From Chloroflexota bacterium (GTDB lineage Bacteria; Chloroflexota; Anaerolineae; Aggregatilineales; Phototrophicaceae), in NCBI GenBank assembly GCA_016223085.1, contig JACRPS010000008.1:62001-126000 (forward strand): a stretch of DNA of 64,000 nt, in the 5' to 3' direction. Every line of letters begins with the position of its first letter. Position 1 is the stretch's first letter. Position numbers and translations under genes: made by a program. Shown piece by piece: positions 14,021 to 62,044 of the stretch. The notes under the pieces are model-generated. The model was not told where the DNA came from. It ran no database searches and saw only the letters and a list, made by a program, of their open reading frames with translations.

Positions 14021-14078
14021 GCCGGACGCTGAAAGCCGTCCGGCTGAATGACAAAAGCTACCTGGAAGGTGGCTGGAA
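14021..14078. repeat. Two-hairpin repeat element (GCCGGACG/AGCC type)
   Basis: Hairpin 1: GCCGGACG (14021-14028) with CGTCCGGC (14037-14044). Hairpin 2: AGCTACCT (14056-14063) with AGGTGGCT (14067-14074), one G-T pair. The linker contains CAAA. Related copies are at 43809-43858, 48112-48168 and, shortened and inverted, 60137-60177. Confidence 0.8.
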
Positions 14079-33861: not shown

Positions 33862-33927
33862 AACCGCCAAGACACCAAGAACGCCAAGAAAATTTAACAT
33901 CTCGGCACTCTTGGCGTCGTGGCGGTT
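33862..33927. repeat. CCGCCAAGACACCAAGA inverted-repeat element
   Basis: AACCGCCAAGACACCAAGA (from 33862) and CTCTTGGCGTCGTGGCGGTT (33908-33927) form a long imperfect hairpin in the gap before the tryptophanase gene. A sister element is at 44434-44502 and one right arm at 45980-46009. Confidence 0.8.
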
Positions 33928-44515: not shown

Positions 44516-45823
44516 ATGTCTATTCAACTTTCTTCCAAACGTACCCGCTGGCTGATCGGCGGCGTATTTGTTTGTATCGTGCTCGTCGCGCTGCTGGCGC
44601 TCGATCTGCGTTCGCACGGCCTGATCTGGAACGGCCTGTGGTGGCTGACCGGCGAAGAAACGCCGCTGGCACAGGTGCGCGGCCTTGTCGAATACCTGGG
44701 CAATTTCACCCGCCCGCAGCCGAATACCGCGCCCGATGTACCAATTCAGCACGTGGACGTGAGTCCCTACGGCGTCAACACGTTTTTACAGAACGAGGTT
44801 GAACCGTCCAAACGCGAACGCCAGGTGCAGATGATCGCGGAGGCCGGCTTCCGGTGGATTCGCCAGCAGTTCCCCTGGGAAGACATCGAGATTCACGGGC
44901 GCGGCGATTTTGACGACCGCCGCAACGTGGACGCGGTCGGCGTCATCAGCGCGTGGGACAAATACGACAACATCGTTGATCTGGCGGAAAAATATGGCCT
45001 GAACATCATGGCGCGGCTGGACAATCCTCCGGCCTGGACTCACGCCAATCCCGATATTGGCGAAAAAGCGCCGCCGGATGACGTGCAGGATGTTGTCAAC
45101 TATGCCGTCGCCGTAGCGGAGCGTTACAAAGGCCGCCTGTACTACTACCAAATCTGGAACGAGCCGAACATTTACCCCGAATGGGGCAACCAGGCGGTGA
45201 ACCCCGAAGCCTATACCGATCTGCTGTGCCGGACGTACACGGCGCTGAAAGCGGTTGACCCGGCCATCGTCGTCATCAGCGGGCCGCTGTCGCCAACCGT
45301 GTCGCTGTCGGCAGAAAACCTCAACGACTTCATTTTCTTGCAGCGGATGTATGACGCCGGCGCGGGCAAGTGTTTTGACGTGATGTCGGCACAGGGGTAC
45401 GGCTTCTACAGCGGCCCAACTGACCGCCGCCTGCGTCCGATGACGCTGACCTACGCCCGGCACATCTATATCCGCGATATCATGGTGGCGAACGGCGACG
45501 CACATAAACCGATCTGGATCAGCGAGGCCGCCTGGAACGCCCAGCCGGAAGACCCGACTATCGTGCAAATCCAGTACGGCAATTTCGGCATCGTGAGCGA
45601 GGAGCAGGCCGCGCGGTACATGCCGCTGGCCTACCAGCGCGCCCAGGCGGAATGGCCCTGGGTTGGCGTCATTTTCTACTGGTTCTTCAAGCAGGAAGAC
45701 GACAGCCGCCGCAATCAGGCGTCGTATTATTTTCGCATGGTCGAGCCGGACTTCACGCCGCTGCCGGTGTACGAGAGTATGAAGGCATACATCACCAGGC
45801 AGCCGGGGACAAACGCGAAATGA
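44516..45823 (+). CDS. Membrane-anchored glycoside hydrolase (clan A fold)
   Basis: 435 residues. N-terminal TM anchor about 12-29 (WLIGGVFVCIVLVALLAL), then a TIM barrel. The acid/base is Glu216 in YQIWNEPN and the nucleophile is probably Glu337 in KPIWISEAAW, as in GH39/GH5-like xylosidases and related enzymes. It faces outward, tethered to the membrane. Its stop codon overlaps the start of the GT39-like gene (ATGA at 45820-45823), so it forms a translation-coupled pair that may process and build cell-surface glycans. Exact GH family and substrate are not resolved. Confidence 0.85.
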   Translation: MSIQLSSKRTRWLIGGVFVCIVLVALLALDLRSHGLIWNGLWWLTGEETPLAQVRGLVEYLGNFTRPQPNTAPDVPIQHVDVSPYGVNTFLQNEVEPSKRERQVQMIAEAGFRWIRQQFPWEDIEIHGRGDFDDRRNVDAVGVISAWDKYDNIVDLAEKYGLNIMARLDNPPAWTHANPDIGEKAPPDDVQDVVNYAVAVAERYKGRLYYYQIWNEPNIYPEWGNQAVNPEAYTDLLCRTYTALKAVDPAIVVISGPLSPTVSLSAENLNDFIFLQRMYDAGAGKCFDVMSAQGYGFYSGPTDRRLRPMTLTYARHIYIRDIMVANGDAHKPIWISEAAWNAQPEDPTIVQIQYGNFGIVSEEQAARYMPLAYQRAQAEWPWVGVIFYWFFKQEDDSRRNQASYYFRMVEPDFTPLPVYESMKAYITRQPGTNAK

Positions 45824-48060
45824 CAAAAAAAGCACAGAAGAAAAGCGTAACACAGAGGCACAGAGGTACAGAGGCACAGAGAAGTCGTCAGTCGTCAGTC
45901 ATCAGTCGTCAGTCAAAAAACGGTAGGGTGACGGCGGGGAATGTAGGGACACGATATATCGTGTCCCTACAACAATACCGTTTTCTTGGCGTTCTTGGCG
46001 TCTTGGCGGTTGTATCTTTCGCCTTTTACCTACGTTTTCATAACCTCGAAGCGCAGTCGTTGTGGAACGACGAGGGCAACAGCTTCGTGCAGGCGACTCG
46101 CTCGTTCGCGGACATCGCCGTCAATGCCGCGCGGGATATTCACCCGCCGGGTTATTACCTGCTGCTGGCGGTGTGGCGGCAGATCACCGGCGATACCGAA
46201 TTTGCGCTGCGGGCGCTGTCAGCTTTCGCCAGCGTGCTGACCGTCGCCTTTACCTACGCGCTGGGACGGCGGCTATTTGGCGCGTTTGCCGGACTGATCG
46301 CCGCGCTGTTTGTGACGCTCAATACGTTTAACATCTACTACGCGCAGGAAGCGCGTATGTACGCCCTGCTGGCGCTGTGGTCGGCGGCGTCACTATGGAT
46401 ACTGGCGAACATCCTTGACCCCTATCCCCCCACACGGAGAGAGGATGTAGGGACACGATATATCGTGTCCCTACGGCAACCGCAAATCCGTTGGGCGCTC
46501 GCTCTCGGCCTCGTTAACGCCGCCGGGCTGTACACGCAGTACGCCTACGCGCTGGTCATCCTCGCGCAGGCGGTGATGGTGGTGGTGTGGATAGTCTTCA
46601 GTCTTCAGTCTTCAGTCGCAAGTCTTCAGTCCTCAGTTCTCAGTTCTCAGTCAAAAGCAGCAGAACCGAAAACTGATAACTCAGCACTCAGCACTCAGCA
46701 CTCAGCACTTGGTAATTCTAACTCGGAACTCGGAACTCGGAACTTCCGCCTCAGCACTCAGTACTCAGTACTCAGTACTTTCTTTCTGGCGAACGCCCTC
46801 GCCCTCCTCCTGTTCCTGCCCTGGCTGCCGACAGCGTGGGCGCAGGTGATGGCATGGCCGAACACCGGACAGCCGGTTGGGATGGGCGAGGCGCTGCAAA
46901 CGATTCTTGGCTGGCTGGCGTATGGCCTGACCTTTGAGGCGACCGCGCCCGCCACGCTGCCCTACGTGCCCATCTTCCTGGCGGTCGGCCTCGCGCCGTT
47001 CCATGCGGCGCGTCCGCGCTGGGGGCGCATCCTGTTCCCGGTGATCGCGCTGCTGGTGATCGTCGGGCTGTTCCTGGCGCTGGGGTTGTTCCGCCCGGCC
47101 AACCTCAAATTCCTGCTCCCGGCGCAGATCGCCTTCGCGCTGTGGATGGGACGCACGGCGGACGTGATGTGGTGGGCGGCACGCACCGGGCCACGACCGT
47201 CGCCGCTGCTGATGGCGGCGGTGGCGCTCAGCTTTGGCGTGGTGCTGTTTGACGCCGGGCGCGGCGTGACTTTGTTATACGATGACCCGCGTTTCCAGCG
47301 CGCCGATTACCGCGCGATTGCGGCAGCGATTGCAGATGAAGCAACGCCGGACGATGCGATCATCCTCGACGCGCCCAACCAGGAAGAAGTGTTCCGCTAC
47401 TACTACAAAGGCGATACGCTCGTTTACCCCCTGCCGCGGGGCTTAGGCGGGGACGACGCGGTGGCGCGGGCCGAAGTGCGCGACATCATCGCCAATCACG
47501 ACCGCATCTTCGCCGTGTTCTGGGGTGAAGCCGAACGCGACCCCAACCGTGTGGTTGAAACGACGCTGGACACGGAAGCGTTTGAAGCCGGCGAAAACGT
47601 CTGGTACGGCGACGTGCGGCTGGCGCGGTATGCTGCGCCGGCTGAAATGCCGCCGCTGACCGAAGCAGGCGCGCATCTTGGCGACTCGATCACGCTGGAA
47701 GGGTATGCTCTCAGCAGCGACCATGTGCAGCCCGGTGAGGTGCTGCAACTTGAGCTTCAGTGGCAGACGGACGCGCCGCTGGATACACGTTACAAAGTGT
47801 TCGTACAGCTACTTGACGGCGGCGGCAGGTTAGCGACGCAGCGCGACAGCGAACCCGGCGGCGGTCTTAAACTCACAACCACGTGGCAGCCGAACGAAAC
47901 GATCACCGACCGGCACGGCCTGCTCATCCCCACCGATTTAGCTCCTGGCTCGTACACCCTGATTATCGGGCTGTACGATCTCAATAACCCTGCTGCTCGC
48001 CTGCCGGTAGAGGATGGTGATTATCTGGAATTGGGGGTGATTACAGTGCAGGATGGGTAG
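45820..48060 (+). CDS. GT39/ArnT-like membrane glycosyltransferase with repeat-derived insertions
   Basis: 746 residues. Multi-TM enzyme of the dolichyl-phosphate-mannose or ArnT-like class: RFHNLEAQSLWNDEGNSF carries the early Glu/Asp pair typical of the first luminal loop, then ARDIHPPGYYLLL and LFVTLNTFNIYYAQEARMYA. The C-terminal soluble part (about 600-745) is a beta-domain (LGDSITLEGYALSSDHVQPG). Residues 11-54, 210-218 and about 258-321 are translated from intergenic repeat families: TQRHRGTEAQR, SRQSSVISRQS, VGTRYIVSL (twice), RFLGVLGVLAV, and a Ser/Gln-rich tract. Start at the ATGA overlap; a GTG at 45961 within the palindrome is an alternative. Confidence 0.86.
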   Translation: MTKKAQKKSVTQRHRGTEAQRSRQSSVISRQSKNGRVTAGNVGTRYIVSLQQYRFLGVLGVLAVVSFAFYLRFHNLEAQSLWNDEGNSFVQATRSFADIAVNAARDIHPPGYYLLLAVWRQITGDTEFALRALSAFASVLTVAFTYALGRRLFGAFAGLIAALFVTLNTFNIYYAQEARMYALLALWSAASLWILANILDPYPPTRREDVGTRYIVSLRQPQIRWALALGLVNAAGLYTQYAYALVILAQAVMVVVWIVFSLQSSVASLQSSVLSSQSKAAEPKTDNSALSTQHSALGNSNSELGTRNFRLSTQYSVLSTFFLANALALLLFLPWLPTAWAQVMAWPNTGQPVGMGEALQTILGWLAYGLTFEATAPATLPYVPIFLAVGLAPFHAARPRWGRILFPVIALLVIVGLFLALGLFRPANLKFLLPAQIAFALWMGRTADVMWWAARTGPRPSPLLMAAVALSFGVVLFDAGRGVTLLYDDPRFQRADYRAIAAAIADEATPDDAIILDAPNQEEVFRYYYKGDTLVYPLPRGLGGDDAVARAEVRDIIANHDRIFAVFWGEAERDPNRVVETTLDTEAFEAGENVWYGDVRLARYAAPAEMPPLTEAGAHLGDSITLEGYALSSDHVQPGEVLQLELQWQTDAPLDTRYKVFVQLLDGGGRLATQRDSEPGGGLKLTTTWQPNETITDRHGLLIPTDLAPGSYTLIIGLYDLNNPAARLPVEDGDYLELGVITVQDG
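45849..45882. repeat. ACACAGAGGCACAGAGG arm inside coding DNA
   Basis: AACACAGAGGCACAGAGG and its continuation match the left arm of 11205-11236; only one arm is present, and it encodes TQRHRGTEAQRS. Confidence 0.8.
45943..45970. repeat. GTAGGG palindrome, in-frame coding copy 1
   Basis: Perfect 28-base palindrome, identical to 787-814, encoding VGTRYIVSL (residues 42-50) of the GT39-like protein. Confidence 0.92.
45980..46009. repeat. Right arm of CCGCCAAG element in coding DNA
   Basis: TTTTCTTGGCGTTCTTGGCG and the following TCTTGGCGG match the right arms of 33908-33927 and 44474-44502 and encode RFLGVLGVLA, the start of the first TM helix of the GT39-like protein. Confidence 0.75.
46447..46474. 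repeat. GTAGGG palindrome, in-frame coding copy 2
   Basis: Perfect 28-base palindrome, identical to 787-814, encoding VGTRYIVSL (residues 210-218) in a loop between TM helices. Confidence 0.92.
46593..46780. repeat. CTTCAGT/ACTCAGC/TCGGAAC tandem tract in coding DNA
   Basis: Repeated 7- and 8-base units: GTCTTCA x3-4, GTTCTCA, CACTCAG x3, ACTCGGA x3, TACTCAG x3. ACCGAAAACTGATAACT within it also occurs between genes at 61058-61076. It encodes about 64 Ser/Gln/Thr-rich residues in frame. Confidence 0.8.
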
Positions 48061-48111: not shown

Positions 48112-48168
48112 GCCGGACGCTGAAAGCCGTCCGGCTGAACGGCAAAAGCCACCTGAAGGCGGCTGGAA
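48112..48168. repeat. Two-hairpin repeat element (GCCGGACG/AGCC type)
   Basis: GCCGGACG (48112-48119) with CGTCCGGC (48128-48135), then AGCCACCT (48147-48154) with AGGCGGCT (48157-48164). Nearly identical to 14021-14078. It lies in the 244-base gap after the GT39-like gene, which holds nothing else recognisable. Confidence 0.8.
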
Positions 48169-60006: not shown

Positions 60007-60319
60007 CCGCCGCAGATTCCCCCTGTGTGCGTCGGGATTTCAAAGGCGTGTCGAACCATTCACAAGCACGAACTGGCTGAATCATTCGCGGTAAGCCTGC
60101 TGAAGACAGGCTGAAAGAATTAAAAACGATCCTCCCAGCCACCTTTGAGGTGGCTTTTGTCGTTCCGCCGTCCGGCGACGCCAACTGAAGTCTTGTCCTG
60201 GCGCACATGGGGCGCGCCGCCGTGCTTCCCATTTTTACGCGCTTCAGCAGACGTGGTTTCAGCCAGTTTCCCCATTTCCCGGTATAATAAAGATAGCGAG
60301 CTAACGAGGGGGCATTAAC
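60007..60319 (+). other. 313-base region between SDR and cNMP-binding genes
   Basis: Holds a shortened inverted copy of the two-hairpin repeat (60137-60177), whose second hairpin may act as a terminator, and TATAAT (60283-60288) preceded by CGG, 32 bases upstream of the next gene. No -35 element and no coding frame is convincing. Confidence 0.6.
60137..60177 (-). repeat. Shortened two-hairpin element; possible terminator
   Basis: AGCCACCT-TTG-AGGTGGCT followed by TTTT (60137-60159) can terminate the SDR transcript. On the minus strand it continues as CAAAAGCCACCT, matching the family consensus, and the first hairpin is reduced to CGCCG-TC-CGGCG. Confidence 0.6.
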
Positions 60320-61836: not shown

Positions 61837-62044
61837 AATGTTCCTTTGTAAACGAACCGGCACGGTTCAGTGAGTTACGCTCGCAGCGAAAAAATAAAGA
61901 CCAGCTCATCCCCTTAAGTATACTCCCATGTCCCATTTTGCACGTTAGGGAATCAAACTGGCCTAAAGCCTTAATTATCCTGTGGACAGGCTGGAAGTAA
62001 ACTGTTTGTATTACGTGAATGAAATTGCTTCCCATGAGGACAAC

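Follow-up and report, generated by a model that had tools for sequence, protein, structure and literature searches.

The window examined here is the whole stretch of 64,000 nucleotides, i.e., positions 62001–126000 of contig C17 of the source genome (G000, an uncultured Chloroflexota bacterium, 6.03 Mb). It contains a gene for a predicted GT-C/PMT_2-type membrane glycosyltransferase, the 5′ part of which holds copies of several repeat families (Table 1). The repeats named in an initial annotation of this gene are found at the positions listed, all within one open frame by sequence and open reading frame (ORF) check; the frame opens with ATG 45820, crosses all embedded repeats without interruption, and closes with a stop whose last base is 48060. 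The start codon shares bases with the TGA that ends the GH5-like gene upstream. The two GTAG palindromes are indeed identical, and the ACTCAG-type tract, estimated at 190 bases, is present and measures 187 bases, in five array rows. The CTTGGCG arm is 97% complementary to 33862–33892 across 31 nt.

The product scores 39.6 bits with the Pfam PMT_2 profile (cut-off 26.1), and the best Foldseek matches for its model are AglB, STT3, Pmt4, PglB, and ALG12 (E 8e-8 to 3e-5; TM-scores 0.34–0.55), so that the predicted structure is a moderate match to the GT-C fold. The earlier label "GT39-like" is a fair one at the fold level for a predicted glycosyltransferase.

The AlphaFold2 model (745 residues, without the initial Met, from a 30-sequence alignment) has a predicted local distance difference test score (pLDDT) of 85.4 and a predicted TM-score (pTM) of 0.83. 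Segments of at least three residues with pLDDT <50 are 1–37, 203–208, 211–216, and 287–302, that is, the N-terminus and two loops; they include 65 of the 73 residues with pLDDT <50. The CTTGGCG arm codes for the start of transmembrane helix 1 (helix 41–72), as initially annotated, with high model confidence. Towards its margins, the heptamer tract is modelled as the ends of helices, with decreasing confidence, hence it is not purely loop. The initial placement of the repeats, in frame at the N-terminus and between helices, is supported. By helix count, the three repeat-bearing parts would be on the cytoplasmic side, pointing away from the conserved WNDEG loop.

Table 1. Features of the repeat-bearing gene and its upstream neighbour (window coordinates)
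Feature	Position	Strand	Product or placement	Evidence
Predicted GT-C/PMT_2-type membrane glycosyltransferase gene	45820–48060	+	746 aa	ORF, Pfam, Foldseek
CACAGAGG array	45851–45881	+	TQRHRGTEAQR, near N-terminus	11 sites in 1.19 Mb vs. 0 reversed; also in G023, G005, G007
AGTCGTC heptamer tract	45883–45914	+	SRQSSVISRQS	Reversed control not discriminating
28-nt GTAG palindrome GTAGGGACACGATATATCGTGTCCCTAC	45943–45970	.	VGTRYIVSL	Genome copies, palindrome census
CTTGGCG arm, the right arm of the CCGCCAAG element	45984–46011	−	Approximately aa 55–64, start of transmembrane helix 1	20 sites vs. 0 in control
Second GTAG palindrome, identical to the first	46447–46474	.	Loop A, between model helices 177–198 and 219–238	
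Composite heptamer tract (AGTCTTC, ACTCAGC, AACTCGG, CTCAGTA)	46593–46779	+	Loop B and flanking helix ends	
GH5-like gene, upstream	44516–45823	+		ORF; Pfam Cellulase 22.9 bits, just under the cut-off of 23.5

Dispersed repeat families and their placement

The repeat families were surveyed in a 1.19-Mb sample (C17 in full plus the initial 880 kb of C12), 84.7% of which is genic. Genome-wide, the 28-nt palindrome occurs, with at most three mismatches, at 211 places per strand, with 0 in the backward-read control. Within the sample, GTAGGG...CCCTAC palindromes of several subfamilies number 158, mostly 28–29 nt long (seven scrambled tags, 0–2 each), and period-7 segments scoring at least 11 number 70 (0 in one codon-block shuffle). 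The reversed control clearly separates the CACAGAGG sites (11 vs. 0), the CTTGGCG arm (20 vs. 0), and AACTCGG (11 vs. 0); it is weak for AGTCTTC (15 vs. 4), ACTCAGC (14 vs. 4), and CTCAGTA (11 vs. 5); and it fails to discriminate the AGTCGTC tract (18 vs. 16). In our opinion, this weakness arises from the likeness of a heptamer read backward to other members of the group; for these last four, the evidence against chance is the period-7 test. The assignment of the repeats in the gene to dispersed families, rather than to chance, is confirmed.

Tandem heptamers are prone to slippage, and the tracts might have grown in this way from native sequence, merely resembling dispersed repeats. We regard this as highly improbable: unrelated genes hold composite arrays built from the same units, although in varying order, and the palindromes are not slippage products, since more than 40 exact copies exist elsewhere.

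The sampled palindromes are mainly intergenic (126, with 15 at gene edges and 17 in genes), and the genes flanking them are unidirectional in 87 cases, convergent in 40, and divergent in 14, compared with 700, 166, and 164 for all gene pairs. The CACAGAGG arrays are all intergenic (11/11), as are 18 of the 20 CTTGGCG arms, the other two being at edges. Genome-wide, a strict pattern finds 34 ACTCAG clusters, 17 of them inside called genes (14 genes), 15 intergenic, and 2 at edges. The initial description of the families as intergenic thus applies to palindromes, CACAGAGG arrays, and CTTGGCG arms, and not to the heptamers. As the gene caller starts the 45820–48060 gene at 46060 on dicodon score, the gene's own copies 5′ of that point are tallied as non-genic.

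The 17 sampled palindromes in genes occupy the three codon frames in 14, 3, and 0 cases, the third frame holding TAG; of 91 close copies in a set partly centred on palindromes, 16 are intragenic, with frames 15/1/0. Two frames are open and one is preferred; the peptides encoded are VGTRYIVSL, VGARHAVPL, and VGANRRFAP. Genic ACTCAG clusters all lie on the stop-free strand (17/17), which is largely definitional, since the opposite strand has TGA in all frames; 3 of the 17 are N-terminal. By Pfam or NCBIfam, repeat-carrying genes include MqnA, ABC ATPase, CcmH, tRNA uracil methyltransferase, group-1 glycosyltransferase, GT9-WecG, Maf, HypF, a two-domain ABC ATPase, MetG, YfhO, and more PMT_2 genes; four of the scanned repeat-carrying genes have no Pfam match. 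One loop differs in repeat content among congeners in MqnA (15 genomes) and in a methyltransferase (16 genomes), and in HypF (12 genomes) the palindrome is inside a variable loop.

Several individual genes illustrate the placement of palindromes. A methionyl-tRNA synthetase gene on contig C10 (L247:2614–4428, + strand) has an in-frame GTAG palindrome (VGTRHAVSLQ) shortly 5′ of KFSKS, and a YfhO-like membrane protein gene (G000 C12:802496–805201) has four, in frame and of different subfamilies. In GT9+WecG (G000 C12:325762–327777) and in the two-domain dipeptide ABC ATPase (L266:1028–3127), the palindrome is between the domains, so that a repeat may be located at the joint or may even have created it.

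Non-genic ACTCAG clusters (L239–L246, L254–L259, and C17:154367 in G000) are frequently found right after stop codons: 10 of the 17 begin at most 10 nt after one, their TGA-bearing strand being the coding one, and two more are hairpins beginning at most 2 nt from a stop. In four clusters a stop (TGA or TAA) replaces the TGA of the first unit; in two more, TAG overlaps the first unit. Heptamer arrays might thus be an element class of their own with a strand rule (stop-free strand in genes or at starts, stop-bearing strand right after stops), seeded by a tandem-adding process and not by transposition, with transcripts of one set able to pair in trans with 3′ ends of the other; this we consider very unlikely. 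Neighbours of the non-genic clusters, by Pfam, include nuo-type genes, cysteinyl-tRNA synthetase, and ribosomal L6–L18.

Antisense arrays as gene-truncating insertions are not supported for the pairs and clusters inspected. Among seven close same-strand flanking pairs, taken from the same 17 clusters (the remaining ones not all examined), none looks like one broken gene; the flanks are separate genes by Pfam where both match, and one pair includes a second protein that lacks a Pfam match. In the twelve clusters inspected, stops are at or before the first unit, which also counts against truncation.

N-terminus and loops in homologues

The protein search found matches in all 17 genomes of the genus, and orthologues from 16 were aligned (G003 and G008 by the C-terminal part only; G006 and G007 cut by contig ends; G001 in two frames). 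Length and content vary at the N-terminus, in loop A (after approximately aa 203), and in loop B (approximately aa 259–320); the remainder aligns. Loops A and B are short in G002 (13 and 4 aa) and G012 (15 and 6 aa); those of G010 (22 and 8 aa) have no recognised motif. An N-terminus with CACAGAGG and CAGTC is common to four species (G000, G023, G005, and G007), and the nearest relative, G023 (76% identity), has neither of the palindromes nor the CTTGGCG arm. The loop-B heptamer tract recurs in several congeners, with changing unit sequence. The N-terminus and the beginning of transmembrane helix 1 in G022 and G004 derive from a different hairpin repeat, which has further partial copies in both genomes; what we read as decayed GTAG palindromes is found within loop A of G022 and of G009. 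Partial matches to inserts elsewhere in the same genome number 44 further for G011, 15 for G009, and 30 for the N-terminal hairpin of G022.

Loop statistics were computed for 81 sequences, namely this gene and the best 80 of 211 confirmed loci, congeners included, the 80 being mostly from Anaerolineae or Chloroflexi with a few others (one Bacteroidetes, one Pleurocapsa among them). Recognised repeat motifs, from a list drawn up after the families were seen, are present in 20 of 37 long (at least 20 aa) and 6 of 44 short A loops, and in 14 of 29 long (at least 12 aa) and 3 of 52 short B loops; same-length control windows elsewhere in the same genes have them in 61 of 1025 cases. Long loops thus hold recognised motifs far more frequently than short loops or control windows do. 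That all homologues share the same inserts, named initially as an outcome that would weaken the insertion model, is refuted: loops of homologues are short or otherwise filled. The N-terminus and the segments between helices behave as recurrent landing sites, as had been proposed, the loops being short in some orthologues and other repeats being present in others. The proposal of several independent repeat types stands as regards dispersed families; not all are independent recent arrivals, given the N-terminal arrays shared by four species and the loop-B heptamers of several congeners.

Reuse of the same loops in many homologues, and retention of the loop-B heptamer tract while its unit sequence changes, could also mean that the repeats are kept for a function at the site (translation pausing between helices, mRNA shaping, or flexible linkers). 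Loops that are short in some orthologues (G002, G012) and an insert content that differs in kind among species make this quite unlikely.

The N-terminal repeats could alternatively be an untranslated 5′ leader, the protein starting at GTG 45961 or later; the start called at 46060 points this way, and Di Nocera et al. note that many repetitive extragenic palindromes (REPs) at annotated N-termini may be extragenic (PMC3733652). This is unlikely on several counts. ATG 45820 and its peptide are kept in the four species despite differing upstream sequence, and transmembrane helix 1 is partly encoded by the CTTGGCG arm, which would be retained with a start at 45961 and lost with one at 46060. One alternative frame is closed at once in all four species; the third is also open, hence frame openness alone is no proof of translation. 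In the 34 N-terminal codons, synonymous changes are enriched among changed codons (15/33 vs. approximately 22%, range 21–23%, expected; P 0.0023) for two non-overlapping pairs of our choice, G000–G023 and G005–G007; all six overlapping species pairs give 47/117. This codon constraint supports translation from ATG 45820, as judged from sequence, and opposes the downstream start that had been raised initially as an objection.

The sequence of the GH5-like gene is unlike the DNA upstream of the G023, G005, and G007 orthologues, in which homology starts at about the ATG. Another hairpin-like repeat family, GCCGGACGCTGAAAGCCGTCCGGCTGAA..., is present in the window at 14021–14064, 48112–48155, and 60145–60176, and also near a Y1 transposase gene (locus L299).

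Origin of the inserts

Our preferred reading, with a probability of roughly 0.74, is that dispersed repeats enter coding DNA and that copies which keep the frame survive in tolerant places. Since relatives fill the same loops with different repeats, repeat DNA appears to keep being built into protein genes. Several small dispersed repeat families would insert in both coding and non-coding DNA of the lineage; coding copies would survive where the frame stays open and the site is tolerant (N-terminus, inter-helix loops, domain linkers), and therefore the same few loops would be filled repeatedly. A newcomer may then take the place of a resident repeat, join it, or expand it. The older elements of this gene would be its N-terminal arrays and one loop-B heptamer tract; both palindromes and the CTTGGCG arm are absent from the nearest relative. 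Mobility and the neutrality of the inserts we infer; heptamer arrays were probably seeded and then grown by slippage.

The palindromes were possibly moved by single-strand transposases of the IS200/IS605 type, which are candidate movers. Y1_Tnp matches were found at three loci (L299, L300, and L301), flanked by two GTAG palindromes and one related, by three, and by none, respectively, with approximately 0.4 expected per 3.3 kb. Two candidate transposases score 93.6 and 97.2 against the IS200/IS605 cut-off of 55.

Several observations weigh against this reading of dispersed repeats entering genes. Palindromes avoid genes (17/158 in a sample that is 84.7% genic), and the ACTCAG clusters (17/34) likewise fall short of the genic proportion. 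The absence of antisense heptamers and third-frame palindromes from genes is partly forced by gene calling. About half of the long loops have none of the listed motifs, and the named relatives are mostly metagenome-assembled genomes. No exact filled/empty junction or duplication could be read where HypF and this gene were aligned to near relatives, which have other sequence at the site, and a target-preference test on palindrome flanks gave a weak C/T preference and no more. The same two candidate transposases score 34.3 and 25.7 bits, below the curated cut-off of 80 for REP-associated tyrosine transposases (RAYTs). Finally, the G001 gene (L028, C95:30145–33825) is open in two overlapping frames, one before and the other after loop B, and GT9-WecG of G001 (L214, C173) is split at an ACTCAG array.

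The overlap of the two G001 frames spans the region with AACTCGG and ACTCAG arrays. Frame loss at heptamer tracts is what frame switching or decay would predict; the G001 state may mean that the gene is switched off, that it is decaying, or that slippery repeats were misassembled. In-gene heptamer arrays may then be contingency loci, i.e., on/off switches like that of NeuO of Escherichia coli K1, because one seven-base unit more or less shifts the frame. The gene has pure arrays of approximately four units (ACTCAGC, AACTCGG), and neuO has in-gene AAGACTC heptamers and is full-length if the unit number is divisible by 3 (PMC13001214). By contrast, the frame is kept in 13 of the 14 congener genes whose sequence could be traced as far as loop B or beyond it (G003 and G008 seen in part), whereas NeuO is off in 65.6% of 64 genomes (PMC13001214); arrays are also found in MqnA and tRNA uracil methyltransferase, and most tracts are imperfect. 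We consider switching unlikely.

If dispersed repeats do enter genes in this way, repeats from outside genes are turned into polypeptide again and again at the same loops of a single enzyme family, and close relatives offer short, shared, recently filled, and frame-broken versions for comparison. Such a comparison makes it directly testable how protein loops are supplied by repeat DNA, and whether heptamers within genes are neutral or function as switches. For annotation, a caution follows: gene starts and loops in such genomes may consist of dispersed repeats.

Relation to known repeat systems

Cyanobacterial short tandemly repeated repetitive (STRR) heptanucleotide repeats are also tandem heptamers, sometimes joined with small dispersed repeats. 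TAACTGA heptamers are reported from Beggiatoaceae, cyanobacteria, and Bacteroidetes, with the Maribeggiatoa copies mostly just upstream of start codons (PMC4679880). The present arrays resemble those so described in being tandem heptamers spread genome-wide, and the source genome has a TAACTGA-type array (C17:148266–148296); here, however, stop-free heptamers are in genes and stop-bearing ones are often right after stop codons. The likeness to NeuO is a heptamer array inside coding sequence with the frame set by unit number (PMC13001214); the difference is that several different, mostly imperfect arrays are in internal loops here, with 13/14 followable congener genes in frame.

Rickettsia palindromic elements of approximately 105–150 bp (105–146 bp in PMC2229807) comprise several families (ten) found in frame in unrelated conserved genes, one product having been tested and found active (PMC2229807 and PMC10969869). 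The likeness is one of behaviour, i.e., in-frame insertion in conserved genes; the comparison is by description and not by sequence. In contrast to the Rickettsia elements, the repeats here are 28–29-nt palindromes and tandem heptamers, hence of other length, and the same loops are reused across species.

GTAG-tagged REPs are described as 20–40 nt long, with a GTAG tag and high copy number, and as lying for the most part in intergenic DNA whose flanking genes are unidirectional or convergent (Di Nocera et al., 2013; PMC3733652). The palindromes here agree in size, tag, copy number, and location, with some in genes, sometimes twice, and they fit this sequence class, a statement that leaves RAYT-driven movement aside. 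They differ in being nearly perfect, with GTAG 5′ on both strands, in having nearby Y1 genes that score as IS200/IS605, and in sharing a gene with heptamer arrays. The same paper already describes GTAG REPs within genes, a gene with two insertions, clusters that encode 43–82 aa, and REPs at about the same recB site in two Xanthomonas (PMC3733652). The novelty initially claimed for a multi-family pile-up in one gene was therefore too strong, although the mixture of families in one gene is newer. A literature search, limited in depth and with most subscription papers outside its reach, found no coding heptamer arrays or multi-family pile-ups in Anaerolineae. As far as this literature goes, the newer features are the location of heptamer arrays in genes, where half of all clusters are found; the mixture of palindrome, heptamer, and hairpin families in a single gene; and the refilling of the same loops across the genus and beyond.

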